From NCBI GenBank assembly GCA_020634495.1, contig JACKBR010000072.1:1-17407 (forward strand): DNA of 17,407 bases, written 5' to 3'. The DNA comes from Ardenticatenaceae bacterium (GTDB taxonomy: Bacteria > Chloroflexota > Anaerolineae > Promineifilales > Promineifilaceae). Under the pieces are notes generated by a model. The model ran no database searches. It saw nothing but the letters and a program-made list of their open reading frames with translations, and was not told where the DNA came from. Every line of letters begins with the position of its first letter. The stretch's first letter is position 1. The translations under genes were made by a program, and so were the position numbers. Positions 156 to 17,407 of this stretch are shown one piece after another.

Positions 156-2489
156 TTAATTTCTACCAATTTTACCATTCACATTAAGATTATGAAGTAG
201 CTCGTCAGCCTGGTTTATTTCATATCTCATCAACATGCGTTCAAATTGATCTTGCGCACTCATTGCCATATGTCTGGCATCTGCAAGTCTACCCTGTTTA
301 GCGTACACACGCGCCATCCCAAATTCTGCATGGGCAATATTTTCTTGCCGATAAACCTTCTTGCTGCTTTCTAAGGCGGCCTCAAAATAGGCAGCAGCCT
401 TCGCATAATCTCTTTGGGCCAAAGCTACGTTTCCCAAATCAATTTGCCGACTACCAAAGCTAATTTCTTTCCCTTCCCTTTTTAGAATATTCAAAGCTTT
501 TAGCAGTAACTCTTCAGCCTTCTCATATTCATTTTCCCGTAGTGCCAGTTTTCCCTTGGCTGATAAGAGAACAGCATCATCTTCTCCGAATGTTCGTACA
601 ATTTCATCAATAATCGACTGGGCTTCATCAAGCTTGTTTTGAGAAATAGCGATGCGCGCTCGTGTTGCTTGAATCAATGCCGCCTGTTCAGTATCCCCAA
701 TACTAAAATATAGATCAAAGCTTTTTTGAAGGATTTCATCAGCTTCTTGATGCTTGTCCTGTCTGTATAAGATCCATCCAATTGAGTATTGAACCTCAGC
801 CGTCGCCTTTATATCATTTGCCAGTTCTGCAACCTTTAGTGCCATTTGGCCATAGGTAAGACGCTCCTCCCAATAACCACGTGTTCCTAAAAAGAAGTAA
901 ATGCAATAAAACATCTTAGTAGCAAGTGACAACTCCTTCTCTTTACTTGCCCACTCAAGGGAAGCCAATATGTTTGGCAGTTCTGCCTCGAACCAGGGAA
1001 AACCAGATACATCACCCCAAGTTCCTCTTTCTTGACAGCTTCGCTCTAAATAATATTTAGCCAGGCGGAGGCGTGCTTCTTGCTCTAATGACGGACTTTT
1101 GGCGAGCTGAGCTCTGGCGAAGGAGCGACATAGGGGGTGGATGTCGTATCGTCTATGTATCAAGTCTAGCTCATCTATTGCATTGACCAAGGACATCTCG
1201 ACCAATTGGCCGATTCCCTCAACCAATTGCGAATTATTAACATTGCTCGCTGCCTCAATATCAGCTTGATCGGCTGGTGTGGTAAAGAGGGGTAATGTGG
1301 TTAGAATCGCACGTGCATTATCCGAAAGCAGGTTCCAAGAGCGTGAGAATATCGTTTCAAAAATAGCCCCTTCTGCATTCTGCAATGCACCAATAACTGT
1401 TTCCAGCGATTGACCTTTTTGTTTAATTTGCCCCGTTGCCCACTTGATTGCCAATGGTGCCCCACCGGTTGCATTATAGAGCGGCAATAAAGTTTGCTCA
1501 GAAGCACGTGCCAAAGCTTTCAAGCCAAGGCGTCTTCCTTCTTCACGCATGAGGGTCAGGGCATCATCTTGGCGTAATTTTTGCAGTGCGATCACATGCG
1601 CATTGCGTAACCTTTGTTCGCGTGTTGTAACTAAGCATTGAGAAGGCTCAGGTAAATCGTGTAAAAAAGTACGAACTCCCTCATCATGAATTGTCTCGAA
1701 GTTATCAACGATAATCAGATAGGATTTTGACTGGAGCAACTGGCGTAACTCAAGCTGCTTATTTTCAAGTGGGAGTTGGGCTATGCCTCGGTAATTTAAT
1801 GTGCGGGCAATGGTATCTACCAGATTGTTGAGTGTGAGCTCTTGAGCCTTTGCCGATGCCCAGACAAATCCATCAAAGGCAATTCCATCTTCGTCGAATT
1901 CTGATGCTAAACTGGCTTCCAGGCAAATATAGGCTACCTCAAGAGCCAGCGTAGATTTTCCAATACCACCGAAGCCCTCAATGCTAATCAGGTAATCTTT
2001 AGCTTTCAGTGCTTCAAGAACGGCCGCTTTTTCTGCCTCTCGTCCCACAAATTTTTGTCGTCGTGGCAGATTGTGTAAGATTTCTGGTGGGCTGAGGTGT
2101 GGTACAGGTGTTTCTTCATCCCATTTGGCGTGTGGGCGCAGGCTTTTTCCGGCAGCAATTAGGTCTGGTAAACGGCCGTTGCGATTCATAAAGGCTACTA
2201 ATTCTCGCGCTTTATCAACTTTACCATTTCCAGATAAGCTTTCGTAATCAATACCAAGATCAAATGATAAGGTTTGCAATTCGCTATCATTGAAAAGCAC
2301 TGAAAATTGATAGCGTAAATGCGCCAAATTAGCGGAATCCTGTTCCATCTTTGGAATCAGATTTATTATCTTTTTATTTGCTTCATTGACTTTTTGTCGC
2401 CTATTTTGAAGATAATCAATGACTTGAACAAGCCCGGCAATAATTCCAACAATGCCGCCAATTATTGCTAGTATAGTTAGAAAATCCAT
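156..2489 (-). CDS. Membrane-anchored STAND NTPase: EAD-like domain, NB-ARC ATPase, TPR repeats
   Basis: 777 residues. Residues 4-24 form a hydrophobic anchor, followed by a short coiled stretch. Residues 55-118 (LRYQFSVLFND, FDLGIDYESL, GKARELV-like and GRLPDLI segments) resemble an effector-associated (EAD) death-fold-like adaptor domain. The NB-ARC core has Walker A GFGGIGKST (172-180), Walker B LIIVD (258-262), a sensor-like TTR (288-290), GAPLA (343-347, the GLPL equivalent) and an MHD-like DIHPLCR (449-455). The C-terminus from about 540 to 760 is TPR-like (repeated A/G-x-x-Y/L helices), probably the sensor. Proteins of this build act as signal-triggered oligomerising switches, often in conflict or programmed-death systems; EADs recruit effectors carrying the same EAD type. 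No partner effector with an EAD is visible in the window. The gene is AT-richer than its core neighbours and sits directly upstream of mnmA. Family assignment is firm; the biological role is inferred. Confidence 0.85.
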   Translation of the reverse strand: MDFLTILAIIGGIVGIIAGLVQVIDYLQNRRQKVNEANKKIINLIPKMEQDSANLAHLRYQFSVLFNDSELQTLSFDLGIDYESLSGNGKVDKARELVAFMNRNGRLPDLIAAGKSLRPHAKWDEETPVPHLSPPEILHNLPRRQKFVGREAEKAAVLEALKAKDYLISIEGFGGIGKSTLALEVAYICLEASLASEFDEDGIAFDGFVWASAKAQELTLNNLVDTIARTLNYRGIAQLPLENKQLELRQLLQSKSYLIIVDNFETIHDEGVRTFLHDLPEPSQCLVTTREQRLRNAHVIALQKLRQDDALTLMREEGRRLGLKALARASEQTLLPLYNATGGAPLAIKWATGQIKQKGQSLETVIGALQNAEGAIFETIFSRSWNLLSDNARAILTTLPLFTTPADQADIEAASNVNNSQLVEGIGQLVEMSLVNAIDELDLIHRRYDIHPLCRSFARAQLAKSPSLEQEARLRLAKYYLERSCQERGTWGDVSGFPWFEAELPNILASLEWASKEKELSLATKMFYCIYFFLGTRGYWEERLTYGQMALKVAELANDIKATAEVQYSIGWILYRQDKHQEADEILQKSFDLYFSIGDTEQAALIQATRARIAISQNKLDEAQSIIDEIVRTFGEDDAVLLSAKGKLALRENEYEKAEELLLKALNILKREGKEISFGSRQIDLGNVALAQRDYAKAAAYFEAALESSKKVYRQENIAHAEFGMARVYAKQGRLADARHMAMSAQDQFERMLMRYEINQADELLHNLNVNGKIGRN

Positions 2490-2712
2490 GAAATTTGTAC
2501 CTGGATTGTTTTATGAAGTAAAGGACTGGCAAGTTTATCGGCCGTTCACCGAGAAAAATTACGAGTCAATAGTTAGCCTCACCACTTTATGCTTCGATTG
2601 AATTGTCAGCACAATACATGTTGTATAGTTAACTTGCGTTATCTCACTCATGATGAGCCTAATGTACATCTTTCTGAGTTTTTATCAAATGCTTTAATTC
2701 CATTAATCACGC
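2490..2712. other. Non-coding spacer between Nudix and STAND genes
   Basis: AT-rich spacer of 223 bp. It holds one near-copy of the window-wide octamer (TCGGCCGT, near 2538) and small dyads such as the one around ACAATACATGTTGT. I found no convincing promoter, terminator or small ORF with a ribosome binding site. Confidence 0.4.
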
Positions 2713-3384
2713 TCACTTCCAGGCGAAGTAAGGCTGTTCAAAGTGGGCCACGCGGGTTTGTTTGCCCAGGAGGCAAACTTCGCGGAATTGGTACAGCATG
2801 GCGGCGGTGGGCGCGGCAATCCAGCTTGTGCCAATGGGCATCAGCAGGACGGGGTGTTTGCTTTCGGGGATGTTGTGCAAGATGGGTGCATCGCCGCGCA
2901 GCAGCTCCGCCAGGGGGATGCGGTGGATGGATTGTACTTCGGCGGGATTGGGGTGTAGGCCGGTCACGTGGCCGCCCCACACCACCACCGGTTTGATGGT
3001 GAAGCCGGAGCGGGTGGTGTAGTCATCCAAACGGCCGATCACATTCTCCATCTCCAACTTTAGACCCACTTCCTCGGCCAATTCGCGCACGGCCGTTTCC
3101 TCTGGCGTTTCCCCCGCGTCCATGCGCCCCCCAGGCAAGGCCCACTGTCCTGCATGTTTTTTTAGTTTAACCGAGCGACGTGTTAGCAAAACGGCCGCAT
3201 GATCTTCACAACCGTCTGCAAAGGGAATATCAAACAGGTCTGGCTTGTGCGCCACGTGAACAATCGTGATGGCCACGGCCGCAGCCCGCTTGCCGTCTTG
3301 CAGCTTGCCCGATTGGAACGGAAAACAACGTAGATTTGTGGTGATTTCTTGGCGCAATTTGTCATTGCATTGCAGCTGGCTCAT
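2713..3384 (-). CDS. Nudix hydrolase, resembling the CoA-pyrophosphatase (NudL-type) group
   Basis: 223 residues from the ATG at 3384. The Nudix box is complete: G86-x5-E92-x7-R100-E101-L102-x-E104-E105-x-G107-L108. It is preceded by LLTRRSVKLKKHAGQWALPGG (67-86 region), which resembles the UPF0035 signature of CoA pyrophosphatases (LLTxRSxxLRxHxGxxxFPGG). Nudix enzymes hydrolyse nucleoside diphosphates linked to another moiety using Mg2+ held by the box glutamates. CoA or a related dinucleotide is a plausible substrate, but specificity cannot be read from sequence. A longer reading from TTG at 3432 exists, but it has no ribosome binding site and adds a non-conserved 16 residues; the ATG at 3384 also lacks a clear one. 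The C-terminal segment (about 140-200) is typical of Nudix proteins predicted to hydrolyse pyrophosphate bonds near a hydrophobic base. It is divergent to the LRR gene. Confidence 0.85.
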   Translation of the reverse strand: MSQLQCNDKLRQEITTNLRCFPFQSGKLQDGKRAAAVAITIVHVAHKPDLFDIPFADGCEDHAAVLLTRRSVKLKKHAGQWALPGGRMDAGETPEETAVRELAEEVGLKLEMENVIGRLDDYTTRSGFTIKPVVVWGGHVTGLHPNPAEVQSIHRIPLAELLRGDAPILHNIPESKHPVLLMPIGTSWIAAPTAAMLYQFREVCLLGKQTRVAHFEQPYFAWK

Positions 3385-3564
3385 GTGGCCAATGGTAGCG
3401 AATTTTTGCGTAACTGCACATAGATGATTCAATTTTAATTTGGATTTAACTGCTTGTACAAGAGTCGGTGAGGAAGAGTCAGGGAGGCGTTGTCTATATC
3501 GGGAATTCTTTTGCTACGCTGAAACAAGACATTTTCGCAGGAGACTTCATGAGCGCAAGCTCAA
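3385..3564. other. Divergent intergenic region, left part
   Basis: Together with the repeats to 3778 this forms a 394-bp gap between divergently transcribed genes (Nudix minus, LRR plus). I see no clear promoter consensus in the first 180 bp. Short ORFs crossing it have no ribosome binding site and no recognisable protein, so I treat it as non-coding regulatory or spacer DNA. Confidence 0.4.
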
Positions 3565-3663
3565 CACCATGAATGAAAATCAGCAGATTGCGCAGATTTA
3601 CCAGATTTTTCTCTGCGTTCTCCGCGTTCTCGGCGGTTAAATTATTTTCAAAGGAGACGACAC
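3565..3663 (+). repeat. Direct repeat copy A (CGCAGATT-type intergenic repeat)
   Basis: A roughly 99-bp unit beginning CACCATGAATGAAAAT, passing through iterated GCAGATT and CTCTGCGTTCTCCGCG, then GGTTAAATTATTTTC, and ending AAAGGAGACGACAC. It aligns almost end to end with copy B, 113 bp downstream. The unit contains internal short iterations (ACGCAGATT, TCTGCG) and ends in a Shine-Dalgarno-like AAAGGAG. Confidence 0.85.
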
Positions 3664-3677
3664 CAACTCTTGTTGAC

Positions 3678-3775: not shown

Positions 3776-3778
3776 AGA

Positions 3779-5410
3779 ATGAGACGATACCTTTTGGTTG
3801 CTCTGACTTTATTGATGTTGAATGCTTGCACAGTGTCGGAGATGGATACAGTCACAGTTGTGCCGTCAGAACCGGCCCAGGTGGCCGCAGAAACAGTGAT
3901 TACCACCAATTCACCCAAACCCACCTCTGTCTATACCCCAACTTTAACAACTGAAGACACGGCCGATCTCGACTTCTCCACGACAGAGATTTCGCCATCG
4001 ACATCTTTACCTGACGTAAATGTTTGTAATGATGTCTTTGAAATCCCAATGTCTGAATGTACAGCGCTCGTTGCCATTTACCAGGCAACTGAGGCCTATG
4101 GTGAAAGCTTGCATGGTAAAAACTGGTGGTATTACCAGAGTTGGTTACAAACAAATAAGCCTTGTTCTTGGTATGGCATTACCTGCGCTCATGGGCATGT
4201 CACAAAAATAGACCTACAGTTAACAGCCATTCTCGGCCCGGTAAATTCAGAAACGCACAGGTTGGTTATATCAATGGAACAACCGGAAAATAGGGTGAAT
4301 TTACCTGCTGAAATAAGTAACCTGATCTACCTGACAGAACTTAGTTTACCGACCAGCATTTTGACAACCGTGCCGCCAGAAATCGGCACTCTAACAAGTT
4401 TAACAACCGTCGTCATAGGCGGTGATTTTAGCAGCGTGCCGCCGGAGCTTGGTAGTTTGTCACAGCTTACGGAATTAACCTTGTATGCCCCTCAGTTGAC
4501 CACGCTTCCCCCGGAATTGAGTCACTTAACAAATTTAACGGAACTAACCCTGGCAACCAGTGATCCCGCGGTTATAACGGCCGTTCCCACCTTACCTTCA
4601 GTCACCAAATTACATCTGGTAGGAAGCGCTATTGACACGTTACCACCGGAAATCGGCAACTTAGCCAATATTACCTACCTTGAAATACGCGCTGGGCTGC
4701 ATTCTTCAGCACTAACGGCACTACCGGCAGAGATTGGCAATCTGACAAACCTGGTACATTTTGAATTACACGATACATCTTTAGAAGCGCTTCCCCCAGA
4801 GATCGGTCAGTGGAGCAAACTGGAAAGCTTTGTATTAAGCGGCAATTTTTCACTCGCACAAATTCCCAAGGAGATTGGGAACTTAGTCCAATTAAAACAG
4901 CTCTCTATAAAAGACAGCCAATTGGGCGAACTGCCCCAAGTTCTGGGACAGCTCAGTAATTTAACGCATTTGGATTTGATTTTAACCGGAGCCAACGAGC
5001 TGCCGTCACAAATCACTCAGCTAGAAAATCTGCAACATCTCATGTTTGGCCCCGGTTTTTCAAGCGAAGGTGTCGTCGCAATTGAGCGCTTGAAGAACTT
5101 GACAAGCCTTTCCTTGGTCGGAGGAAATCTAAGCAATTCGTTCCCGGAAGTTTGGCATCTGACCAATTTAACCCATCTCGATTTGACTTCTACCGAAGTA
5201 ATAAACCTGCCAGCGGAGATTGGCCTGTTTACCAACCTGATCACATTAGCGTTGCCCAATACCGGACTGCACAACCTGCCACCAGAAATCAGCAATCTGG
5301 CTAATCTCACCACACTAGATTTAAGCGGCAACCCATTGAGCAGCCTGCCACCAGAAATATGCGAATCATTGGGCGAAGCGATTGAACCTGAGTCCCTTTG
5401 CACCCCTTAG
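3779..5410 (+). CDS. Leucine-rich-repeat lipoprotein (cell-surface, LPPEIGNL-type repeats)
   Basis: 543 residues from the ATG at 3779, chosen because AAGGAG lies just upstream and the protein then begins with a lipoprotein signal peptide: MRRYLLVALTLLMLNAC, lipobox LNAC with Cys17 as the lipidation site. A Thr/Ser/Pro-rich linker (about 18-80) is followed by a cap region with Cys pairs (SWLQTNKPCSWYGITC, 121-136) resembling LRR N-terminal caps. From about 173 to 527 there are roughly 14 leucine-rich repeats of 22-25 residues with the core LPxEIGNLTNLTxLxL. A C-terminal Cys541 may pair with Cys528 to cap the solenoid. Such proteins bind other proteins or ligands at the cell surface; the target is unknown. 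The frame is open upstream to 3686 but that part is the repeat. AT-richer than core genes. Likely an accessory gene. Confidence 0.85.
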   Translation: MRRYLLVALTLLMLNACTVSEMDTVTVVPSEPAQVAAETVITTNSPKPTSVYTPTLTTEDTADLDFSTTEISPSTSLPDVNVCNDVFEIPMSECTALVAIYQATEAYGESLHGKNWWYYQSWLQTNKPCSWYGITCAHGHVTKIDLQLTAILGPVNSETHRLVISMEQPENRVNLPAEISNLIYLTELSLPTSILTTVPPEIGTLTSLTTVVIGGDFSSVPPELGSLSQLTELTLYAPQLTTLPPELSHLTNLTELTLATSDPAVITAVPTLPSVTKLHLVGSAIDTLPPEIGNLANITYLEIRAGLHSSALTALPAEIGNLTNLVHFELHDTSLEALPPEIGQWSKLESFVLSGNFSLAQIPKEIGNLVQLKQLSIKDSQLGELPQVLGQLSNLTHLDLILTGANELPSQITQLENLQHLMFGPGFSSEGVVAIERLKNLTSLSLVGGNLSNSFPEVWHLTNLTHLDLTSTEVINLPAEIGLFTNLITLALPNTGLHNLPPEISNLANLTTLDLSGNPLSSLPPEICESLGEAIEPESLCTP

Positions 5411-5623
5411 CCATACGTTATGGTACTAACTTAAGACTTTGTGAAACGGCCGTTTTCAACCCAGAATAGACCTTCCCTTGTCATGTTGAGCGCAGCGAAA
5501 CATCCCCACGGCGCATCAATTACCAGAACCTGCCTTCGCGGGCAAGCGTGTCAATTATTGGCGTTCAGAGGGGTTCTTCGCTGCGCTCAGAAGGATAATT
5601 AAGGTTTGCTTGGGTACCAGAAT
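5411..5623. other. Convergent spacer between LRR and cysteine desulfurase genes
   Basis: The spacer contains a perfect 12-bp palindrome AAACGGCCGTTT at 5444-5455, which could fold as a small hairpin for either convergent transcript, and the inverted repeat pair at 5480-5597. No gene is supported here. Confidence 0.5.
5480..5597. repeat. Inverted repeat pair with TGAGCGCAGCGAA arms
   Basis: The left arm at 5487-5499 reads TGAGCGCAGCGAA; the right arm at 5577-5589 is its exact reverse complement, TTCGCTGCGCTCA. Flanking bases also match partially (GTCATGT.. and ..AGAAGGAT; ACATCCCC and GAGGGGTT). The spacer between the arms is about 77 bp. The arm resembles the dispersed GTCATTCTGAGCGCAGCGAAGAATC-type intergenic repeats I know from several phyla; that link is from memory and unverified. 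Confidence 0.75.
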
Positions 5624-6802
5624 TTACATCGTGAAGAGCTGGCTAACTTTGCGGACTTTTTCAACAACCGAGGGCATGGCCTGGATGACGCGCTTGATGT
5701 CTGCCGGGCTGTTTTGGCTGCCGACGGTGAAGCGCAAACCACCTGTGGTCCAGGCGGGGCCAAGGCCAATTGTTTCCAGAATGGCAGATGGCTTGGGATC
5801 GCCGGTTTTGCAGGCGGAGCCGCTGCTGGCGCAGATGCCCGCCATGTCCAGGTGCATCAGCAAATCGTTGCCGCTGAGGTTTTTCAGGGCGAAGCTGGCG
5901 TGGTGGGGCAGCCGCTCGGTGGGATGCCCGGTGAGAATGATCTCGTCGGTTGGCACGGCGGCCAGCACGCCTGCGATGAGCTGATCGCGCAAGGTGGTGT
6001 AGTGGGCCACGTGCGCCTCAACATTTTCCTGGGCCAGCTTGAATGCCTCGGCCGCACCGACGGCAAAAGCGACGTTAACCGTGCCGGAGCGACGGCCGTC
6101 TTCCTGCCCGCCACCCGTCAATGAAGAAATCAGCTCAATCCCCTCCCGCACGTACAGCATCCCCACGCCCTTGGGGCCGTAAAATTTGTGCGGGGCCATG
6201 CTGAGCAAATCAATAGGCATGGTGGCCATGTCCCAGCGGGTGGTGGCCGCTGCCTGCACCGCGTCCGTGTGGAACAAAATGCCGTGCTGGCGGGCCAACG
6301 CGCCAATCTGCTGAATGGGCTGCATCGTGCCAATTTCGTTGTTGGCAGCCATGATGGAGATGAGGGCTGTGTCGGGCCGGATGGCGGCGGCGACGTCGTC
6401 TACGGAGACACGGCCGTATTCATCCACGCCTAAAATTGTCAGGTCAAAATTGAAATGGTCGCGCAGTTGAACGGCCGTTTCCAAAACAGCCTCATGCTCA
6501 ATGGCGCTGGTGATCAGGTGGTTGCCCCTGTTGTGTTTACGCGCAGCCCACATCACGCCGCGCACCGCTAAATTGTCGCTTTCTGAGCCGCAGCCGGTGA
6601 AGACAATCTCTTTGGCCTGGGCGTTCATCAGCTCAGCAACGGTGCGGCGAGCTTCTTCCAGGGCAAATCCAGCGGAACGGCCGTGCGCGTGCGACGACGA
6701 CGGATTGCCGTAATGATCCGTCCAGAAAGGCACCATTTTTTCAATAATTTGGGGATTAACTGGCGTGGATGCGCCGTGATCGAGGTAGATGTGTGTTGAC
6801 AT
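5624..6802 (-). CDS. iscS: Cysteine desulfurase (IscS/NifS family, PLP-dependent)
   Basis: 392 residues, a normal length. It converts cysteine to alanine and carries the sulfur as a persulfide for Fe-S clusters and tRNA thiolation. Visible features: N-terminal YLDHGASTPVNP (6-17), YGNPSSSHAHGR (31-42), GSESDNLA (72-79), H104 stacking on PLP, D180 and Q183 in HTDAVQAA, the Schiff-base lysine K206 in SMAPHKFYGPKGVG, R238 in GRRSGT, and catalytic C331 in ASSGSACKTG. The Cys loop matches the IscS/NifS (group I) type rather than SufS. An ATG at 6802 gives the canonical N-terminus, but no good ribosome binding site precedes it. The gene is 77 bp downstream of a histidine kinase, with a 60-bp palindromic element between. 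The likely sulfur acceptor MnmA is at the left edge on the same strand. No iscU, iscA or regulator is adjacent. The function is confident; NifS versus IscS naming is not. Confidence 0.93.
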   Translation of the reverse strand: MSTHIYLDHGASTPVNPQIIEKMVPFWTDHYGNPSSSHAHGRSAGFALEEARRTVAELMNAQAKEIVFTGCGSESDNLAVRGVMWAARKHNRGNHLITSAIEHEAVLETAVQLRDHFNFDLTILGVDEYGRVSVDDVAAAIRPDTALISIMAANNEIGTMQPIQQIGALARQHGILFHTDAVQAAATTRWDMATMPIDLLSMAPHKFYGPKGVGMLYVREGIELISSLTGGGQEDGRRSGTVNVAFAVGAAEAFKLAQENVEAHVAHYTTLRDQLIAGVLAAVPTDEIILTGHPTERLPHHASFALKNLSGNDLLMHLDMAGICASSGSACKTGDPKPSAILETIGLGPAWTTGGLRFTVGSQNSPADIKRVIQAMPSVVEKVRKVSQLFTM

Positions 6803-6878: not shown

Positions 6879-6879
6879 T

Positions 6880-8967
6880 TTATACTTCGGCGATGGGTAG
6901 CTTCACTGTGAAGGTTGTGCCCTTGCCCGCCGTGCTTTTGACCTGAATGGTGCCATTATAATTCTCGACGGCGACTTTGACCATGTAGAGACCCAGCCCG
7001 GTGCCCGCAATGCCCCGCTCAACGGCCGTTTGCGCTCGAAAAAAACGGCCGAACAAATTGGGTAAAGCCTGTCTCGGAATGCCGATGCCGTCATCTTTCA
7101 CCTGCACCACAATCTGGCCGTTTTCAGGAAATGCTTCTACGCGCACCGTGCCAGACAGAGTGAACTTCACGGCGTTGTCGATGAGGTTTTTGAAGATGAG
7201 ATGATACGTTTCCTGGTTGCCCAGAACCGGCGACATGTCGGCAGCAATGCGCTGGCGGAAAGTGAGTCCTTTTTCGGTGGCCCGGTCGGCCAAAGGGGGC
7301 AAAATTTCGTCGAACAGGTCGTTGAGGCTGACCAGATCGTTGCTGCGCTGGAATTCGCTGGCTTCCATCTTTACCACTTCCAGCATCTGGCGCACCATCT
7401 TTTGCAGCCGGTCGCTTTCCCGCTCGATGACGCCCAGGAAGCGGTCGGCTTTCTCTTTTTGCTGGGCTTTGCCTTCGCGCAGCAAGCGGGCGTACATCAA
7501 AATGGTAGCCAGCGGCGTGCGCAGTTCATGGATGATGCCGTGGAAAAAGTCGTCGCGCAGCCGCTCCACTTCCCGAATCTGGCTGAGATCGCTAAAAACA
7601 AAAATCAATTCGGTAACGGCTCCGTTCTCATCCCGGATGGGTGCGCCGCTGAGCAGCACCGGCACCGTGCCGCCACCGCTTTGGCTCATTTCGGTGGCCA
7701 ACTGCGGGTAATCGTCGCTGGTAGAGAGGATGCGCTGCATAAAATCGTTCAGGCTGCCGCTGGTGAGGCGGATCATGTCGTTGGCTTTTTGGCCCAGCAG
7801 TGAGGGCAAATCGCGGAAGAGTAGGCTGAGCAGGGAGTCGTTGGCATGGGTGATGAGTCCATCGGCGTCTACGGTCATCATGCCTTCAGACATGTTGGCG
7901 AAGATGGTTTCGATGCGGCGCTTTTCGGCCAGTACGGCCGTATGCAAACTGGCATTCTCAATGGCTGCGGCCAACGGCCCGCCAATGGCTTGCAGCAGCC
8001 GCAAATCGTTCTCGTTAAAGTCGCCATTCTGCTTGTTAATCGCCTGCAAAATTCCAATCACCCGGTCTTCAATTTGCAGGGGAATACAAATCATGTTGCT
8101 TGTCTGAAAGCCCGATTGTCGGTCCACGCGGGAATAAAAACGTTTGTCGGAGTAAACATCATTAATAATGACCGATTGGCGATTTTCCGACACCCAGCCA
8201 GCAATGCCCTGGCCCTTTTTCAGGCGGATCGTGGGCAAATCCTTAAACAATTCCCCCATGAGAATATCGACAAAAATGATGTCGCCAGAAGGCGGCTCAA
8301 TGAGCCCCACGGAAACAGAGCCGACGTTGAGCGTGCGGCGCACCGGCTCCATGAGCTGCCGGTAAATATTTTGCAGGCTCAGGGTGGAGGTGAGGGCGTA
8401 GCTAATTTCGGAAACGACAGCAAATTCAATATCCTGCCGGTCAACGGTTTGCCGCAGGTAAGCGCGGTCTAGCGCGGTGGTGACGTGTGTGGCCAGCGCG
8501 GCCATATTGTCCAGATCGGTCAGCGGCAGGCTGTCGTTGGGGTCGATAAGGCACAGGATGCCTGGCGGCGTAACCGGGGCATAACGCCCTGGTGCGGGCA
8601 GCGGCACCGCCAGAATGCGCTCACGGGGTATCTGCCACAGTTCGCTGCGGATGAGTTCAGCTGGTGGCTGATTAAATTTTTCTTGCAAGGTGGGTTTTTC
8701 GGCAGCTAAAAAGCTGTCAAAGGAGGCGTGTTGTTTATTCCAGCGGGTTTGTTGGATACGGCCGTCTTTATCACAAATCCACACGTCGTAATATTTTCTT
8801 TGGGGATCGCTGACTCCGACAACGGTGGTAGTTTGGGCGAATACGGCCGTTTCGTTTGCCACCACAGCACAAACGCCATGCGCGTCAAAAATGTTTAATA
8901 ATTCCTCAGCCAGCTTCTGCCACAAACTGTGAATTTGGTTGGAGTCAATGGATAATAAATCGCTCAT
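6880..8967 (-). CDS. Soluble multi-sensor histidine kinase (GAF-GAF-PAS-HisKA-HATPase)
   Basis: 695 residues, no membrane span or signal peptide, so a cytoplasmic sensor. Residues about 15-170 look like a divergent GAF-like domain. Residues 185-345 form a clear GAF domain (KKGQGIAGWVSEN, DRVIGILQAINKQ). Residues 350-465 form a PAS domain (RRIETIFANMSEGMMTVD, ITHAND). The dimerisation/phospho-acceptor box is FFHGIIHELRTPLATI with H480. The ATPase domain shows the N-box KNLIDNAVKF (593-602), G1 DDGIGIP (625-631), F-box LFGRFFRA (638-645) and G2 GTGLGLYMVK (655-664). All catalytic motifs are intact. No response regulator is in the window, so this is an orphan kinase here. The ligand is unknown; GAF domains may sense small molecules, redox state or light. 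The start ATG at 8967 has no strong ribosome binding site. Co-transcription with the downstream desulfurase is possible but interrupted by a palindromic element. Confidence 0.92.
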   Translation of the reverse strand: MSDLLSIDSNQIHSLWQKLAEELLNIFDAHGVCAVVANETAVFAQTTTVVGVSDPQRKYYDVWICDKDGRIQQTRWNKQHASFDSFLAAEKPTLQEKFNQPPAELIRSELWQIPRERILAVPLPAPGRYAPVTPPGILCLIDPNDSLPLTDLDNMAALATHVTTALDRAYLRQTVDRQDIEFAVVSEISYALTSTLSLQNIYRQLMEPVRRTLNVGSVSVGLIEPPSGDIIFVDILMGELFKDLPTIRLKKGQGIAGWVSENRQSVIINDVYSDKRFYSRVDRQSGFQTSNMICIPLQIEDRVIGILQAINKQNGDFNENDLRLLQAIGGPLAAAIENASLHTAVLAEKRRIETIFANMSEGMMTVDADGLITHANDSLLSLLFRDLPSLLGQKANDMIRLTSGSLNDFMQRILSTSDDYPQLATEMSQSGGGTVPVLLSGAPIRDENGAVTELIFVFSDLSQIREVERLRDDFFHGIIHELRTPLATILMYARLLREGKAQQKEKADRFLGVIERESDRLQKMVRQMLEVVKMEASEFQRSNDLVSLNDLFDEILPPLADRATEKGLTFRQRIAADMSPVLGNQETYHLIFKNLIDNAVKFTLSGTVRVEAFPENGQIVVQVKDDGIGIPRQALPNLFGRFFRAQTAVERGIAGTGLGLYMVKVAVENYNGTIQVKSTAGKGTTFTVKLPIAEV

Positions 8968-9505: not shown

Positions 9506-10831
<1,326 letters not shown>

Positions 10832-11786: not shown

Positions 11787-11846
11787 AGACCCTAAGGGTT
11801 TAATCGTCTAAATTGGAAACAATTAGAAGGAAAACCCTTAGGGTCT
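11787..11846. repeat. 60-bp palindromic element, copy 2
   Basis: AGACCCTAAGGGTTT at 11787-11801 and AAACCCTTAGGGTCT at 11832-11846 form a perfect 15-bp inverted repeat around a 30-nt loop containing GTCTAAATT. It lies between the vWA gene and the small membrane ORF. On the minus strand the GGAG ribosome binding site of the small ORF starts only a few bases past the stem, so folding could affect its translation. Confidence 0.85.
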
Positions 11847-11857: not shown

Positions 11858-12643
11858 TTAGCTAAACATGCCAGCAGGCATGGCTCCTTGCTGGCTCATG
11901 CTGATGGTGGATTGGGAAACCAGGTTGAAGATGCGGCGCAGTTCCTGGTGGTCCAGGCCAGCGGCCAGCACGTCGGGAAAGCCAATCTCATCGGCTAGCT
12001 GGCGCAGCTCGGCCGGGTTGATGCCGCCGGAACGAAAGCCGACGTAGGCCAGGGTGTAAATTTCGTGCTTGAGCAGCTCGGTGGCTGCCCGACGAATTTG
12101 CGCAGCGCGTTGTTTGGAAACGTTGTCGCCGCCGTCGGAGTAGACGATGACGATGCAGCGCACCATGACGCCACTTTGGCGCAGCTGTTGGGCATAGAGC
12201 ACCATGTTGGTCAGCCCGCCAGCGACGGCGTCGTAGAGGGCGGTGGAACCGCTGGGTACGTAGCTGCCTCTGCTGAGCGGGGCGATATCTTTGAGCGGCA
12301 TGTAGCCGTGCAGCAGGGTGACGTCCTGGTTGAATAAAATGGTGCTCATGAGGATGTCATCGGCGGCGCTGGAGCCGAGCATGGCGGCCAGGTAGTCATT
12401 GTTGTAGGCGGTGATGAGGTCGGCGGCGTGGGGGGCCATGGAGCCGCTCATGTCGATGATGTTCATGGCCAGGGTGACTTCGTTGCTGGCGATTTGGTTG
12501 AGGGGCGTGCCAACGGCCGTTGCCATCGTTGGCCCGTTCAAATTCGACACCACCAAATCCATTGTGTTGTTTGTCAGGCCATCGGCCTGGGCGGATTGAA
12601 ATAAATTATCCAGGTTGCCAAGTCCGTTATTGTTTGTGTTCAT
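11858..12643 (-). CDS. Stand-alone von Willebrand factor A (vWA) domain protein
   Basis: 261 residues with no signal peptide or membrane span. An Asn-rich N-terminal leader (1-50) precedes a vWA domain (about 55-245) with a complete MIDAS metal site: D64-x-S66-x-S68 in IDMSGSM, T134 in SGSTALYD and D170 in YSDGGDN. Intracellular vWA proteins of this kind usually act as protein-protein scaffolds, often with AAA+ ATPases or in stress or conflict modules. No MoxR-type ATPase is nearby. AGGAG, 6 nt before the ATG at 12643, supports the start. The Gln/Met-rich C-terminus (SMSQQGAMPAGMFS) may be flexible. It is flanked on both sides by copies of the 60-bp element and follows the nicotinamidase-like gene by 91 bp. 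The function is unknown beyond the fold; the fold is firm. Confidence 0.85.
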   Translation of the reverse strand: MNTNNNGLGNLDNLFQSAQADGLTNNTMDLVVSNLNGPTMATAVGTPLNQIASNEVTLAMNIIDMSGSMAPHAADLITAYNNDYLAAMLGSSAADDILMSTILFNQDVTLLHGYMPLKDIAPLSRGSYVPSGSTALYDAVAGGLTNMVLYAQQLRQSGVMVRCIVIVYSDGGDNVSKQRAAQIRRAATELLKHEIYTLAYVGFRSGGINPAELRQLADEIGFPDVLAAGLDHQELRRIFNLVSQSTISMSQQGAMPAGMFS

Positions 12644-12662: not shown

Positions 12663-12722
12663 AGACCCTAAGGGTTTGGTACTGAAAGGGCTTGCTTTAC
12701 TCAAGTTAAACCCTTAGGGTCT
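12663..12722. repeat. 60-bp palindromic element, copy 3
   Basis: AGACCCTAAGGGTTT (12663-12677) and AAACCCTTAGGGTCT (12708-12722), a perfect 15-bp stem identical to copy 2, but with an unrelated loop of the same 30-nt length. On the minus strand it is followed by CTTTAAC and then the ribosome binding site of the vWA gene, and it begins 12 bp after the nicotinamidase stop. Confidence 0.85.
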
Positions 12723-12734: not shown

Positions 12735-13664
12735 TTAAAAAGGCAGCTTGTCGGTGCTGTCGATGAAGTTGACGCCCTGTTTGGCGAAGTCGGCGAAGCG
12801 GGCCTGGGCGATGGCGTGGAAATCGACGTCCGGGTGCAGCACAGGTGAGGTGCAGTCACGCAGAAAATAAATCTTCTGTAACGCCTCCGGCTGGCTGCTG
12901 AAATCTTCGACCAGGTCTTCCACCGTTTCCAGCACGCAGTGGCTTTCGGCCTCCCCGGCGATGACGACCACGTCTGCCTGGGCCAGCGTGTCCAGGAACG
13001 GTTTGTTTTTGCCGCCCATCGGGTGGTTGGGCACGGGGACTTCTGGCTGGATGATGGAGTAATGTTCGGTGAGCGGGATGCTGCCTTTGGTGAGCCATGT
13101 CGGTTGTGTTTTCCTGGCGATGCTGTGGTAGAGAACGGCCGTAAACAGTTCCGGGTCCAGCGCATTGCCAATGCTGCCAATCATCACATGATAGGGCCAG
13201 ATGGTGAGCTGCTTTTTGGCTTCCTGCTCCAGCTGCTTCACGTAGTTGGTCGATTGCACCGGGGCTACCAGCGGCCGCCATTTGCCCTGCTTAATGTCGT
13301 CGTAGGTGATGAGCGTGAACGGTGCCGGATGGTTGCCGTTTGCATCGGCCCACCAGGCGGGATGAAATATTTGGTGGGGCAGGTGGGAATCCAGCGAGCA
13401 GGTGATGTTGGTGATGCGCTCGGCGTTGTTATAGATAAATTCAATCGTTCGCTGAATGTCGCCCATCGCGCCGGGGACAAAGAGGCTGCCATTTTTATGG
13501 CAAAAATCAACCTGCATGTCGATGATGACCAGATGCACATCTTCTTTGTCCTCAACGGCGGGCTTTAAACCTGCGCTGGTTGCTTCAGCAGCGATAGTGG
13601 CGACATCGGGATAATGTAGCGTGCCGATGCGGCTGGGATCATAAAAACTGGGGAATTTGCCCAT
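12735..13664 (-). CDS. Nicotinamidase/isochorismatase-like cysteine hydrolase
   Basis: 309 residues from ATG 13664, chosen because AAAAGGAG lies 8 nt upstream; an upstream in-frame GTG at 13691 has no such site. The catalytic triad of the isochorismatase-like fold is visible: D49 in VIIDMQVDFCHKNGSL, K193 in TKGSIPL and C243 in GEAESHCVLET. SLDSHLPHQIFHPAWW (90-105) supplies the Asp/His set that binds metal in nicotinamidases (PncA), so an amidase acting on nicotinamide or a related amide is likely. PncA releases nicotinate for NAD salvage. The protein is about 100 residues longer than typical PncA, with extra segments at 1-43 and about 120-190, so another substrate cannot be excluded. It is the first gene of a possible minus-strand unit with the vWA gene. 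Its promoter carries two AGTGT-N7-ACACT dyads, indicating tight repression or activation. Confidence 0.82.
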   Translation of the reverse strand: MGKFPSFYDPSRIGTLHYPDVATIAAEATSAGLKPAVEDKEDVHLVIIDMQVDFCHKNGSLFVPGAMGDIQRTIEFIYNNAERITNITCSLDSHLPHQIFHPAWWADANGNHPAPFTLITYDDIKQGKWRPLVAPVQSTNYVKQLEQEAKKQLTIWPYHVMIGSIGNALDPELFTAVLYHSIARKTQPTWLTKGSIPLTEHYSIIQPEVPVPNHPMGGKNKPFLDTLAQADVVVIAGEAESHCVLETVEDLVEDFSSQPEALQKIYFLRDCTSPVLHPDVDFHAIAQARFADFAKQGVNFIDSTDKLPF

Positions 13665-13695
13665 AATTGAGGCTCCTTTTCGGCTACTCACAATA

Positions 13696-13773: not shown

Positions 13774-13823
13774 GGCACTCCTTCAACTGAAGGGCCAAAC
13801 TTTCGAAGCAGGACTGCAAGTCC
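13774..13823 (-). terminator. Hairpins between the HTH regulator and the nicotinamidase promoter
   Basis: Two small stems: CCTTC-AACT-GAAGG (13780-13793, extended by GGC/GCC) and GGACT-GCA-AGTCC (13811-13823). They lie downstream of the regulator gene on the minus strand, before the next promoter. There is no long T-run; this is a weak terminator candidate. Confidence 0.3.
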
Positions 13824-13834
13824 ATAAATTTATG

Positions 13835-14404
13835 CTATTTTGGGGGAGGAATGCGCCAGTAGATGTTATTTTCGCGGGCCATGAGCTGGTGGTCGATGAG
13901 GTAGCGGCGCAGGGAGGCAAAATCGGGATTGAGCTGCTTGAGCCGTTCATTGAGGTCTGCTTCTGGATAGCGCACGTCATACTCAAAATGCTCCACAACC
14001 CAGTTCATGATGACCAGTTGTTTTTTGCGGCGGGCGGGGAGTTGGGTGATACGGCCGTTTTCCACAAACGTTCTCAACACCTTCTGCTCCCAACGATTCT
14101 CCTCATCTGCCGGGGCCAGCTCCGCCAGCTGCGCCTGCGACAAAATATCCTTGCTCATGCTTTCCAGGAACTTCACATCGAGCCAATAAATGCGCGTGTT
14201 GCCTTCCGCCCGCACGTTCACCAGCCCCAGCTTTTTCATGGTAGCTAGATGATGGGAGACGGTTGGCTCACGCAGTTCCAGGAGTGCAGCTAGTTCGCCC
14301 ACGCTGCGCTCCTGGTTGGCCAGCAGCCCTAAAATTTTCAGGCGGCTTTCGTTGCCCAAAACCTTAAAGAAGCTCAATAATTTTTGAAACTGTTCCTCAC
14401 TCAT
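13835..14404 (-). CDS. ArsR-type HTH regulator with C-terminal DUF2087 domain (second of tandem pair)
   Basis: 189 residues. Residues 8-80 form an ArsR-like winged helix: LGNESRLKILGLLAN, then the recognition helix region VGELAALLELREPTVSHHLATMKKLGLV and the wing RAEGNTRIYWLD. Residues 118-186 match DUF2087: RITQLPARRKKQLVIMNWVV, YPEADLNERLKQ, DFASLRRYLIDHQLMARE and IYWRI. The arsenic-type ELCVCD cysteine motif is absent (ELAALLEL instead), so it is probably not a metal sensor of that type. Its ATG at 14404 overlaps the stop of the preceding paralog by 8 bp (ATGAGTGA), implying translational coupling. The two proteins may form a heterodimer or oppose each other. The target is unknown; the nicotinamidase promoter just downstream is a candidate. 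Confidence 0.85.
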   Translation of the reverse strand: MSEEQFQKLLSFFKVLGNESRLKILGLLANQERSVGELAALLELREPTVSHHLATMKKLGLVNVRAEGNTRIYWLDVKFLESMSKDILSQAQLAELAPADEENRWEQKVLRTFVENGRITQLPARRKKQLVIMNWVVEHFEYDVRYPEADLNERLKQLNPDFASLRRYLIDHQLMARENNIYWRIPPPK

Positions 14405-14942
14405 GATGGTTTGTTACCTTTTGATAAATGCCTCGACTGCGTGTCATGGTGCCAAAATCAACCATCAAGCGGCGCATTTCGGCGTAGTCTGGATGGGCCT
14501 GCTGTAGTCGTTTGTTCACCTCTTTTTCTGGATAGCTCACATTGTCGTCAAAGCGTTCTGCTAGCCAGCCCGCGATTTCTCGCAGTTCGGCTTCATTTTC
14601 TGGCAGCTTTTTTAGCTGTGAGCCGTTTGTGTAGTGGCGCAGCACGCGCTGCCGCAAAGTTTCCTTGTTTTGCGAATCGCCCCGGTGAAAAACGGTGCGG
14701 TTGATTTGCTCCAGCGCATTTTGGTTGAGCTGAAAAGTGTAGGGTGCTATTTCTTTTACCAGGCGAGCGCGCTTGAGGCGGTTTAGATGTTTGATTACGG
14801 CCGTTTCCTTCAATTTCGTCCGCCGGGCCAACTCTGGCACAGAGCAGGTAGCTTCAGCCAAAATGCCTAAAATATGCAGCCGCTCCCGCTGCCCGGCTGC
14901 CTGTAAAAAAGTCACCAATGTGTCAATTTGCTGTGTTTTCAT
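14397..14942 (-). CDS. ArsR-type HTH regulator with C-terminal DUF2087 domain (first of tandem pair)
   Basis: 181 residues from ATG 14942, chosen because GAGGA lies about 9 nt upstream; ATG 14951 and TTG 14957 are alternative in-frame starts. Residues 10-72 are a winged helix (RERLHILGILAE, CSVPELARRTKLKETAVIKHLNRLKRARLV), and residues 106-175 are DUF2087 (GSQLKKLPENEAELREIAGWL, YPEKEVNKRLQQ, DYAEMRRLMVDFGTMTR). It is clearly a diverged paralog of the next gene (same domain order and length) and the promoter-proximal member of the pair. It lacks arsenic-type cysteine ligands, having a single Cys33 at the domain start. The promoter at 14992-15020 contains ATTTAGA half-sites consistent with autoregulation. 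The C-terminus ends TNHHE. It is divergent from methionine aminopeptidase. Confidence 0.83.
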   Translation of the reverse strand: MKTQQIDTLVTFLQAAGQRERLHILGILAEATCSVPELARRTKLKETAVIKHLNRLKRARLVKEIAPYTFQLNQNALEQINRTVFHRGDSQNKETLRQRVLRHYTNGSQLKKLPENEAELREIAGWLAERFDDNVSYPEKEVNKRLQQAHPDYAEMRRLMVDFGTMTRSRGIYQKVTNHHE

Positions 14943-14966
14943 AACCGCCATCCTCAATACGCGAAA

Positions 14967-14990
14967 CTATTTAGACGAAAATCTAAATAG
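14967..14990. promoter_or_regulatory. Operator-like dyad CTATTTAGA-N6-TCTAAATAG
   Basis: Perfect 9-bp arms at 14967-14975 and 14982-14990 around CGAAAA, placed between the -10 box and the start codon of the first HTH gene. This is the classic location for an autorepressor site. Confidence 0.75.
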
Positions 14991-14991
14991 A

Positions 14992-15020
14992 AGAATATCT
15001 AAATAGATAGCATCTGTCAA
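14992..15020 (-). promoter_or_regulatory. Sigma-70 promoter of the HTH/DUF2087 pair
   Basis: On the minus strand TTGACA (15020-15015), 17-bp spacer, TATTCT (14997-14992). Full-consensus -35, a two-mismatch -10 and ideal spacing, 50 bp before the chosen start. The design parallels the nicotinamidase promoter. Confidence 0.75.
14996..15009. promoter_or_regulatory. Second operator-like palindrome TATCTAAATAGATA in the promoter spacer
   Basis: TATCTA and TAGATA arms around AA, overlapping the spacer and the last bases of the -10. It contains the same CTAAATAG/CTATTTAG core as the dyad at 14967-14990, so three or four half-sites line the promoter. Confidence 0.65.
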
Positions 15021-15080
15021 CGGCAGTTTGCTGCGCAAAAAAACCAGTTCGCTTCAAACTGGCAGGCTCTTTTTCTTGTG

Positions 15081-15089
15081 TGCTATACT
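15081..15089 (+). promoter_or_regulatory. Extended -10 promoter candidate for methionine aminopeptidase
   Basis: TGCTATACT, an extended -10 (TGn plus TATACT), about 100 bp before the MetAP start; no good -35. It is preceded by a small CCAGTT/AACTGG hairpin near 15044-15062. Confidence 0.45.
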
Positions 15090-15190
15090 TCGCCTCTTCA
15101 TATTTTTACAATCAATTGTCATGATCCTTTCTGCAAGTTTGCCCAGGCAACCTGCCCGGACAACCGGCAGAATGTATTTGGGGATGTTTT

Positions 15191-15955
15191 ATGAGATTAA
15201 AAAATGCCAAGGCCATCTCTCGTATGCGAGACTCTGGCCGCATGGTGGCCGAATGCTTTGCCCTGCTAGAGGAAAATATTCGCCCTGGGGTTAGCATCCG
15301 TATGCTGGACCAAATAGTAGAAAATTATATTGCGGATCGCGGGGCCGAGCCGTTGTACAAGGGGTATCAGGGCAGCGGCGGCAGCCATCCGCCATTTCCT
15401 GGCGTGATTTGCGCGTCGGTGAATCATGAAATTTGCCACGGGCTGCCGGATGATCGCATTTTGCATGAAGGCGATGTGATCGGCATTGATATTGGTTTGA
15501 AGTACAAAGGTTATTGTGGAGATGCCTGCTATACGTTTCCAGTTGGCACAGTATCACCGGCAACGGCGCGCTTGCTAGAGATTGGCAAAGAGGCGCTTGA
15601 GGTTGGCGTTCAGGCGGTGAAGCCGGGCGGCTACTTGAACGATATTGGTCGGGCCATTCATGATTTGGCCGATGCGCGGGGCGTTTCTGTGGTGCGTGAA
15701 TGGGGTGGGCACGGCATCGGCCGTATTTTGCATGATTCGCCGTCGGTGCTGCACATTCGCCAGTCTGGGCGGGGGCCAAAGCTGCGGCCTGGCATGACGT
15801 TTACCATCGAGCCGATGATTAACCAGGGCGGGCATCAATGGATTTTGTTGCAGGATGGCTGGACGGTGATTACGAAGGATGGGTCGCTTTCGGTACAGTT
15901 TGAGCATACGGTGGCGGTGACGCAGACGGGGGTTGAAGTTTTAACGAAGCTGTAG
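15191..15955 (+). CDS. map: Methionine aminopeptidase, type I
   Basis: 254 residues, a normal bacterial length. It removes the N-terminal methionine from nascent proteins in the cytoplasm. All five metal ligands of the pita-bread fold are present: D100 (VIGIDIG), D111 (GYCGDACYTF), H174 (GGHGIGR), E207 (FTIEPM) and E238 (QFEHTVAV); substrate-side H83 is in HEICHGLPDD. The start ATG 15191 begins MRLKNAKAISRMRDSGRMVAE, the expected opening helix. The upstream GGGGAT offers only a modest ribosome binding site. It converges with the AI-2E-type gene, separated by 20 bp containing a 16-bp palindrome. MetAP often neighbours secY/adk/infA; here it stands alone. Confident. Confidence 0.96.
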   Translation: MRLKNAKAISRMRDSGRMVAECFALLEENIRPGVSIRMLDQIVENYIADRGAEPLYKGYQGSGGSHPPFPGVICASVNHEICHGLPDDRILHEGDVIGIDIGLKYKGYCGDACYTFPVGTVSPATARLLEIGKEALEVGVQAVKPGGYLNDIGRAIHDLADARGVSVVREWGGHGIGRILHDSPSVLHIRQSGRGPKLRPGMTFTIEPMINQGGHQWILLQDGWTVITKDGSLSVQFEHTVAVTQTGVEVLTKL

Positions 15956-15957
15956 GC

Positions 15958-15973
15958 GGATACGGCCGTATCC
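15958..15973. terminator. 16-bp perfect palindrome between convergent genes
   Basis: GGATACGGCCGTATCC, built around the window-wide octamer ACGGCCGT, fills almost the whole 20-bp gap between the stop codons of metAP (15955) and the AI-2E-type gene (15976). It may serve as a shared weak bidirectional terminator; no T-run follows. Confidence 0.5.
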
Positions 15974-15975
15974 CC

Positions 15976-17133
15976 TCAATCAGTCGATTTGAGCGCGGTG
16001 TTGCCTGGGGATTCGGCCGTTTTTTTATCACCCGCATCAATGATTCTGGCCGCCAGGGTCTGGTTATCTGCCCACGGATCCATCTTAAACAGTTTGAAAT
16101 ACGTGTACCGGCTAATCACAGCAATCGAGCCAAGAACCGGCACAATGATCAGAGCGGTTAAGACCCCCGCCAAAGAAAGCGAACCGACAATGGCAATAAA
16201 AATAATCGCCGGATGGATGCGCACGCTGGAGCTCATGATGCGGGGCCGGAGCCAAATATTTTCAATGCCCTGAATCGCCAGATAAAACGTGAGCACAACC
16301 ACCGCAAACAGGCCGTTGGAAACATCCAACGTGTTTGACCCGGCCAGCAGAGCCACAATCGTGGCAATGGCCATGATAATGGCTGGCCCCACCGAAAGCA
16401 GCACATCAAAAATGGCGGCGAAAACCCCAAACAGCAGCGCCCCAGGCAACCCCATAATGAGTGATCCCGCGCCAGTTAGTAAGCCAACGATAATGGACAG
16501 GCGCAGCTGACCCCGAAAATAACGATTCCAAACTAGCTTAATTTGCTCATACAGCTTACGAACATCCGATTCAAACGGTTCTGGCGCCCAGCTAAACAGC
16601 CAGTCACGCAGTTTTCCCCAATCTTGCAGCAAATAATAGGTGGCCACCAAAACCACCAAAATCCAGCCCAGATTGGTGGTGCTGGTTTGCAGCAGCTCCA
16701 CAATGATGTCGGCGCGAATGAAAGAAGAAACCAGTTCAGACAAATCGGCTTCTGGCATCAAGCCGTTCAGGTCGATGCTGGTGTTTAAGACGGTGATTGG
16801 TTCCGAGAAGTAATCTTCCTGGGCCTGGGTCATGATGACCTGCATATCAGCCAGGAAGCTGGCTGTTTGTTCGGGGATGGCTGGGACAAAGATGATAGTG
16901 ACGGTGACGATGGCCCCCAATGAGAGCAAATAAACAAGAAAAACGACAAGTGAGCGGGCAACGCGTGCCCGTTCGTTGACCAGGGTGACAATGGGGTTAA
17001 GTAGATAAGCCAAAAGGGCTGAAATGGCAATGGCGCTAATAAGGGCTTGAGCGGCCGTTATAAACCAGATACAACCGGCCAAAACCAGGGCAAATACAAA
17101 ATATCGGGTTGTTGTACTCCACTCTTTATTCAT
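15976..17133 (-). CDS. AI-2E (PerM/TqsA) family membrane transporter
   Basis: 385 residues with the hydrophobicity layout of the AI-2E transporter family: two N-terminal spans (about 10-30 and 31-48), a third (60-85), a long extracytoplasmic or amphipathic segment (86-150), then spans near 155-170, 210-263, 272-290 and 305-345. The conserved C-terminal stretch ENIWLRPRIMSSSVRIHPAI (291-310), then IVGSLSLAGVLTALIIVPVLGSI (316-338 region), is diagnostic. Family members export autoinducer-2 or act as Na+/H+ antiporters, and many have no assigned substrate; none can be assigned here. The acidic/polar C-terminal tail (350-385) is probably cytoplasmic. ATG 17133 gives the first span directly after a short polar start; no clear ribosome binding site is seen. 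Confidence 0.9.
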   Translation of the reverse strand: MNKEWSTTTRYFVFALVLAGCIWFITAAQALISAIAISALLAYLLNPIVTLVNERARVARSLVVFLVYLLSLGAIVTVTIIFVPAIPEQTASFLADMQVIMTQAQEDYFSEPITVLNTSIDLNGLMPEADLSELVSSFIRADIIVELLQTSTTNLGWILVVLVATYYLLQDWGKLRDWLFSWAPEPFESDVRKLYEQIKLVWNRYFRGQLRLSIIVGLLTGAGSLIMGLPGALLFGVFAAIFDVLLSVGPAIIMAIATIVALLAGSNTLDVSNGLFAVVVLTFYLAIQGIENIWLRPRIMSSSVRIHPAIIFIAIVGSLSLAGVLTALIIVPVLGSIAVISRYTYFKLFKMDPWADNQTLAARIIDAGDKKTAESPGNTALKSTD

Positions 17134-17208
17134 ACAGTTAACAATTTTTTCCAGGAGTTTTGCAATCGGCTTGTAATAGTTTAACAGTTCACGAAAAAAC
17201 GTAGGTGG

Positions 17209-17238
17209 ATTCTAGCGAATTTAGAGCTAAATGTACAA
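17209..17238 (-). promoter_or_regulatory. Promoter candidate for the AI-2E-type gene
   Basis: Minus strand TTGTAC (17238-17233), 18-bp spacer, TAGAAT (17214-17209). The -10 is one mismatch from consensus; the spacer contains a small TTTAG/CTAAA dyad. It lies about 75 bp upstream of the start codon. Confidence 0.5.
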
Positions 17239-17312
17239 TTTTTTTTGCTGCGGTGGTTTTTTCTGTACGTTCGCCAGCGTTGATCTGTTGCAGATTTTTG
17301 GGGATTGATCTT

Positions 17313-17341
17313 AAGGACAGGCTAAATACCTGTCCTTTTTG
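17313..17341 (+). terminator. Orphan rho-independent terminator (plus strand)
   Basis: AAGGACAGG (17313-17321), loop CTAAATA, CCTGTCCTT (17329-17337) followed directly by TTT. A classic terminator with a 9-bp stem, but no plus-strand gene ends nearby: the closest upstream gene on either strand is the minus-strand AI-2E-type gene, transcribed away from it. Confidence 0.8.
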
Positions 17342-17407
17342 TTGGCTGGTGTTCTGGCCCGTTGCCGGATGTGGGTAAACGGCCGTTTCCCTACAATCTC
17401 TTCATCA

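Follow-up and report, generated by a model that had tools for sequence, protein, structure and literature searches.

The octamer in the window

The window analyzed here, that is the whole stretch of 17,407 nucleotides from contig JACKBR010000072.1 of an Ardenticatenaceae bacterium, contains 20 exact copies of ACGGCCGT, a perfect palindrome (its own reverse complement) and the top over-represented octamer of the window, at a density of 1149/Mb. An earlier note, made from the letters alone, had listed 20 positions, about a dozen forms with one mismatch and the reading frames of the copies within genes. All 20 positions were exact, and 11 one-mismatch forms were counted, 10 of which differ at the outer base. 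The frames agreed as well: the octamer is read as threonine-alanine-valine (TAV) at 11 sites and as [NDYH]GR at six, and three sites are intergenic. As genes of the window we took 13 open reading frames (ORFs); ORFs throughout are longest-ORF calls. The exact copies of ACGGCCGT, given without strand, are the following:

2172-2179: NGR, in the STAND (EAD7/NB-ARC/TPR) ORF
3089-3096: TAV, in the NUDIX ORF
4577-4584: TAV, in the LRR ORF
5446-5453: intergenic
6092-6099: DGR, in the class-V aminotransferase (cysteine desulfurase-like) ORF
6410-6417: YGR, in the class-V aminotransferase ORF
6471-6478: TAV, in the class-V aminotransferase ORF
6677-6684: HGR, in the class-V aminotransferase ORF
7022-7029: TAV, in the GAF/PAS histidine kinase ORF
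7934-7941: TAV, in the GAF/PAS histidine kinase ORF
8758-8765: DGR, in the GAF/PAS histidine kinase ORF
8843-8850: TAV, in the GAF/PAS histidine kinase ORF
9749-9756: TAV, in enolase; the core stands in the same column of 14/32 aligned enolases
10622-10629: TAV, in enolase; the octamer stands in the same column of 22/32 aligned enolases
12513-12520: TAV, in ORF 11858-12643
13135-13142: TAV, in ORF 12735-13691
14051-14058: NGR, in the first ArsR-HTH/DUF2087 ORF
14797-14804: TAV, in the second ArsR-HTH/DUF2087 ORF
15962-15969: intergenic
17379-17386: intergenic

The 20 copies compare with an expectation of 0.75 under an order-3 Markov model and with a mean of 0.21 (largest 3) in 200 dinucleotide-preserving shuffles. 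When the codons of the 13 ORFs were shuffled synonymously and pooled, 1.6 ± 1.2 copies were obtained (largest 6 in 2000 shuffles) vs. 17 observed. All TAV tripeptides in the ORFs of the window (11/11) are spelled ACGGCCGT.

Judged by its sequence, the window comes from a member of an uncultured order of Chloroflexota, the one around Promineifilum. Its enolase is 97% identical to that of genome G036, 95% to G037 and 96% to G038, and a tree built from enolase and a portion of RpoB (data incomplete, no support values, G017 and G035 not included) placed the window beside G036-G038 and G039. These four genomes lie in the order of G001, the genome with the Promineifilum sp. BROCD045 contig.

Spread, core and dialects within the order

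The close relatives of the window are rich in the octamer, with 1470 (G036), 1671 (G037) and 1577 (G038) copies/Mb; per-Mb values rest on genome sizes rounded to 0.1 Mb. Among 56 genomes of the order, 27 carry at least 900 copies/Mb (maximum 2102) and are called high genomes in the following, three carry 400-900, three 150-400, and 23 fewer. In many members of the order, one copy is met per roughly 500 to 1000 bases. A class-wide sample comprised 396 genomes, 35 counted as members of the order and 361 as outside it; none of the 361 exceeded 120 copies/Mb, the highest count being 430 copies in 3.6 Mb.

Genome-scale tests were run on two relatives from the order, G015 (a stretch of 440 kb) and G013 (a contig of 259 kb). 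We counted 864 copies of ACGGCCGT in G015 and 587 in G013, while the order-3 Markov model predicts 30.6 and 22.3, respectively; the expectation is thus surpassed 26- to 28-fold. In G015, 779 copies are read in ORFs vs. 101 ± 11 in 20 within-gene synonymous shuffles, and the density is 1971/Mb in ORFs and 1724/Mb outside them, which corresponds to a composition-corrected excess of 73-fold for coding DNA and 122-fold for intergenic DNA. The Markov background and the synonymous shuffles were the comparisons that the earlier note had proposed, and the octamer is far above both, in the relatives (779 vs. 101 in G015) as in the genes of the window (17 vs. 1.6).

It might be argued that base composition, codon usage or preference for one tripeptide produces the excess as a side effect, given a GC-rich core and a tripeptide, TAV, that many proteins can accommodate. 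Yet the Markov model and the synonymous shuffles fall far short of the counts, the reversed octamer TGCCGGCA, which has the same composition and served as control, has low counts in the high genomes, and sites are similarly dense outside ORFs. The order of the residues points the same way: G015 has 436 TAV tripeptides vs. 64 expected from amino-acid composition, while the five alternative arrangements of the same three residues are found 45-112 times. Composition and codon usage as the cause were therefore rejected on the Markov, shuffle, reversed-octamer and tripeptide-order results, and we regard such an explanation as hardly credible.

Dialects were derived from de novo palindrome counts together with flank counts on 3-452 kb per genome (several <10 kb). 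Enrichment of the core CGGCCG is 2-fold or higher in 51/56 genomes of the order, the exceptions being G002, G024, G030, G031 and G054. The outer pair A..T, which gives ACGGCCGT, characterizes a large clade as well as G021; T..A, giving TCGGCCGA, flanks 41/64 cores in G017 and 57/63 in G035, and G..C, giving GCGGCCGC, flanks 66/78 cores in G051. Five genomes (G018, G055, G056, G057 and G058, the latter represented by 3 kb only) have a 12- to 24-fold enriched core without a dominant outer pair. The genomes around Promineifilum, with a 2- to 3-fold enriched core and no fixed outer pair, are weak cases, because the reversed core GCCGGC comes close to the core in enrichment in some of them. GCCGGC reaches an enrichment of roughly 2-fold or higher in G001, G053, G060, G061 and G063, and 1.8-fold in G044, G046 and G059; weak core enrichment in these genomes, above all in G044, G046 and G001, therefore means little. 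In seven Chloroflexota genomes outside the order the core reached 0- to 1.5-fold.

The reversed sequences showed patterns of their own. GCCGGC is absent from the window (0 vs. 10.1 expected) and scarce in G037 (2/29.5 observed/expected), G038 (5/27.1), G051 (0/21.9) and G018 (0/12.8), and less depleted in G036 (9/11.8); this scarcity perhaps reflects restriction-site avoidance. The reversed octamer TGCCGGCA occurs 3665 times in the 4.0 Mb of G030, where only 14 copies of ACGGCCGT are present, and 886 times in G031 (4.7 Mb), which has few copies of ACGGCCGT; in these two genomes TGCCGGCA is possibly an alternate palindrome.

Conservation of single sites and the footprint in proteins

Ten aligned pairs of congeners (G012-G016, block identity 84-94%) had 80-94% of their sites in common, compared with 37-72% for permuted octamers; five more pairs, all with G011, could not be aligned. 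Six of the ten pairs, which overlap, provided 307 gap-free sites, of which 280 had identical octamers, and mismatches per position amounted to 1-5% inside the octamer and 7-20% beside it. Sites were conserved alike whether the next site lay within 150 bp (158/176), at 150-500 bp (106/116) or beyond 500 bp (27/29), so that conservation does not depend on the distance to the next site. Spacing is near Poisson, with a deficit below 25 bp and a small excess of gaps above 2.5 kb. At each of three columns of rpoB, 12 or 13 of 14 ACGGCCGT genomes have the octamer; the shared columns in enolase and rpoB may in part be independent gains where the protein permits the octamer.

In 26 high genomes pooled with the window, 987 octamers were found vs. 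13.7 expected. Variants with one mismatch at the outer base reached 5.1, 2.4 and 1.3-fold of expectation; inner variants remained at 0.5-1.0-fold, except ACGTCCGT at 1.9 (12 vs. 6.4).

The indifference to neighbors bears on the idea that the octamer is a DNA uptake sequence, by which competent cells would take up DNA carrying it, so that molecular drive would spread it and lineages would develop dialects. DNA uptake sequences are oriented and non-palindromic, while ACGGCCGT is perfectly palindromic. Molecular drive should moreover make close neighbors redundant, and this was not observed. Still, the palindrome has a core and dialects, as uptake sequences do: the available part of Frye (2013, PMC3630211) describes, for Neisseriaceae, dialects that mirror the phylogeny and are built on a conserved core, some genomes holding thousands of copies, and to that extent many copies, conserved core and lineage dialects are shared. 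On balance we consider an uptake function unlikely.

The octamer leaves a marked footprint in proteins. TAV is spelled ACGGCCGT in 426/436 cases in G015 and 279/286 in G013, while 13-15% would be expected from codon usage outside the octamer; the log odds for the octamer spelling are about 5.2-5.6. Across 25 ACGGCCGT genomes TAV is 6.6-fold enriched (1414/1466 spelled by the octamer) and [DNHY]GR 3.3-fold (915/1098). The footprint changes with the dialect: in the two TCGGCCGA genomes TAV is ordinary (n = 12, none spelled by the octamer) and SA[DE] is 4.2-fold enriched, 51/57 being spelled TCGGCCGA, and in the GCGGCCGC genome AAA is 4.2-fold enriched with 39/51 spelled GCGGCCGC. Seven genomes outside the order showed no such TAV pattern, and AAA was 1.6-fold enriched there. 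The claim that selection acts on DNA and not on protein is correct insofar as the pattern is driven at the DNA level; proteins nevertheless change, as the 6.6-fold enrichment of TAV shows, and the force may be either selection or biased repair.

A counterpart of HIP1 and the force behind it

The closest parallel is HIP1 (GCGATCGC) of cyanobacteria, a repeat that is still unexplained. HIP1 itself was not found in the window, in the 440 kb of G015 or in the 259 kb of G013 (0 copies each). According to the accessible part of Elhai (2015, PMC4390886), HIP1 reaches 300-2700 copies/Mb in most cyanobacteria outside one group, its derivatives keep a fixed core and switch the outer base (GCGATCGC, TCGATCGA), some cyanobacteria sporadically carry another palindrome or none, and its one-off forms are biased to the outer base. 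As far as this account goes, the Chloroflexota octamer behaves alike: it is a GC-rich palindromic octamer with hundreds to thousands of copies per Mb (900-2102/Mb in 27/56 genomes of the order), core-keeping derivatives (TCGGCCGA in G017 and G035, GCGGCCGC in G051), sporadic exceptions and one-offs at the outer base. The same kind of protein-level footprint was measured here on two cyanobacterial plasmids, as AIA is 3.2-fold enriched on a Pseudanabaena plasmid (150 kb; 60/64 spelled GCGATCGC) and 2.9-fold on a Nostoc plasmid (100 kb; 26/37), with weaker enrichment in the other reading frames of GCGATCGC. Copy number, a fixed core with a changing outer base, positional conservation and the protein footprint thus support the analogy with HIP1 drawn in the earlier note. 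The two differ in the core, which here is CGGCCG, in the phylum, in the outer base, which is A/T in most high genomes, and in that no methylase clearly tracks the Chloroflexota octamer.

The excess, the dialects, the conservation of single sites, the near-complete synonymous occupancy and the matching tripeptide enrichment are established; the force behind them, we infer, is local and sequence-directed. Our tentative reading is that ACGGCCGT is a highly iterated palindrome, the Chloroflexota counterpart of HIP1, with a CGGCCG core and a lineage-specific outer pair, kept by a sequence-specific DNA enzyme. Such an enzyme would recognize the core and contact the outer base in a lineage-specific way; it would most likely be a modification enzyme working with mismatch repair or conversion. 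Enzyme and repair together would favor alleles that complete the palindrome and resist its loss, and each site would therefore be gained and kept singly. A new dialect would arise when the contact with the outer base changed. A further cellular use of the palindrome may or may not exist. Autonomous sites, near-random spacing and near-complete synonymous occupancy are fitted better by a local bias of this kind than by selection for site density.

Alternatively, the sites might bind a dimeric chromosome-organizing, recombination or repair protein, each being kept by selection (population-scaled about 5) without any mutational or repair bias. We give this explanation a real but smaller chance, and consider selection on a protein-binding site nearly as likely as the favored enzyme model. 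Strong conservation of sites, the palindromic form and a similar density inside and outside ORFs all speak for it, and according to the available part of PMC6604393, which cites a statistical study, HIP1 is kept by selection and linked to chromosome structure. However, selection would have to be effective at every one of some 15,000 sites in a genome, and powerful enough to change proteins; the near-Poisson gaps give no sign of selection for density or spacing; and conservation is not lower where a neighbor is close, although only 29 isolated sites were available.

For the enzyme model a candidate gene was sought. The earlier note had suggested a matching methyltransferase, but none was identified when we looked among the genomes of the order. 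PF01555 matches were obtained in 52/56 of them, 45 above the cut-off, and in 6/7 re-examined high genomes the weak, split matches belong to one conserved orphan methylase. This protein of about 660-690 amino acids (one of 658) has motif I ahead of DPPY, a motif that presumably indicates adenine methylation, and gave sub-threshold NCBIfam and loose PADLOC matches (DUF1156, type II methylases) and one weak PDB match. Strong matches (E<1e-60) were present in 43/56 genomes, that is in 25/27 high ones and 18/29 others (Fisher p 0.01, uncorrected for phylogeny). It was not found in G018 and G055-G059, which have the core and no fixed flank, and is present in the similar G061. Relatives named Candidatus Leptofilum have it as well. 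The orphan methylase tracks the octamer weakly and is a putative candidate only. Among the core-only genomes, G018 (one locus), G056 and G057 have 5-methylcytosine (m5C) enzymes that are 68-76% alike and 65-70% identical to an enzyme of G042 adjoining a Vsr gene; they appear Dcm-like.

Several results weigh against an enzyme as the cause. None of the genes searched (m5C methylases, Vsr and the orphan methylase) explains the octamer. m5C methylases (PF00145) occur in 26/56 genomes of the order and were rejected as common cause, since only 14/27 high genomes have one. Vsr was found in 8/56 genomes, 6/27 of the high ones, and very-short-patch repair was rejected on these counts and because under Vsr-like repair one C-to-T variant should be depleted; in the pooled genomes ATGGCCGT and ACGACCGT were at 1.01 and 1.03 of expectation. 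The orphan methylase was not found in the high genomes G048 and G049, is present in weak-core genomes, and has strong matches (E<1e-100; three candidates scored per genome) in 21/361 genomes outside the order, where the octamer does not exceed 42 copies/Mb. The tree of this methylase does not group by dialect, and neither the core CGGCCG nor the GCGGCCGC dialect contains an A, unlike what adenine methylation leads one to expect. In addition, almost identical patterns would result from selection per site at log odds of about 5. Apparent absences of genes may reflect gaps, as genome completeness was not given.

We see an even chance that the octamer represents a second genome-wide palindrome system, independent of HIP1 and with heritable dialects, in which a sequence-directed process at the DNA level, and not protein function, dictates thousands of codons and amino acids and the outer base has switched more than once within the order, dragging proteins with it (TAV, SA[DE], AAA). 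No report of an iterated palindrome in Chloroflexota, or of palindromes in Promineifilum and its kin, was found in the literature searched, which left out most subscription papers, and the listed matches to the octamer string were unrelated, judged by their titles. The one paper obtained for over-represented palindromes in Chloroflexi concerns a mycobacterial regulator, and the HIP1 papers listed deal with cyanobacteria. A case in a second phylum separates shared requirements from cyanobacterial accidents, and the fixed core, the several dialects and the relatives without the octamer offer natural contrasts for finding the responsible gene. A DNA-level force that reshapes proteins is relevant to studies of codon usage and dN/dS in this group, and the octamer can be used as a binning tag for contigs of these uncultured bacteria.

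Other over-represented or modified octamers offer further comparisons. ScmA/VsrA of Caulobacter has, in the accessible part of PMC12907096, the motif YGCCGGCR, a solitary enzyme, and a motif frequency only slightly above expectation. The motif described there is a GC-rich palindromic octamer as well, and the TGCCGGCA of G030 (3665 copies) fits it; unlike in that system, the distribution of the octamer here follows neither m5C methylase nor Vsr, and G030 yielded no match to either. In 15 kb of Bacillus sp. IITD106 (L049) the palindrome ACAATTGT occurs eight times vs. 0.67 expected and is perhaps another over-represented octamer.

The window has further features beside the octamer. The ORF at 156-2489 encodes a STAND-type protein with the effector-associated domain EAD7, NB-ARC and TPR repeats, and at 13835-14957 lie two adjacent, overlapping regulator ORFs, each with an ArsR-type HTH and DUF2087. 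ORF 11858-12643 is flanked, one per side, by two 60-bp elements (11787-11846 and 12663-12722) with identical 15-base inverted arms (AGACCCTAAGGGTTT / AAACCCTTAGGGTCT) and differing 30-base middles.

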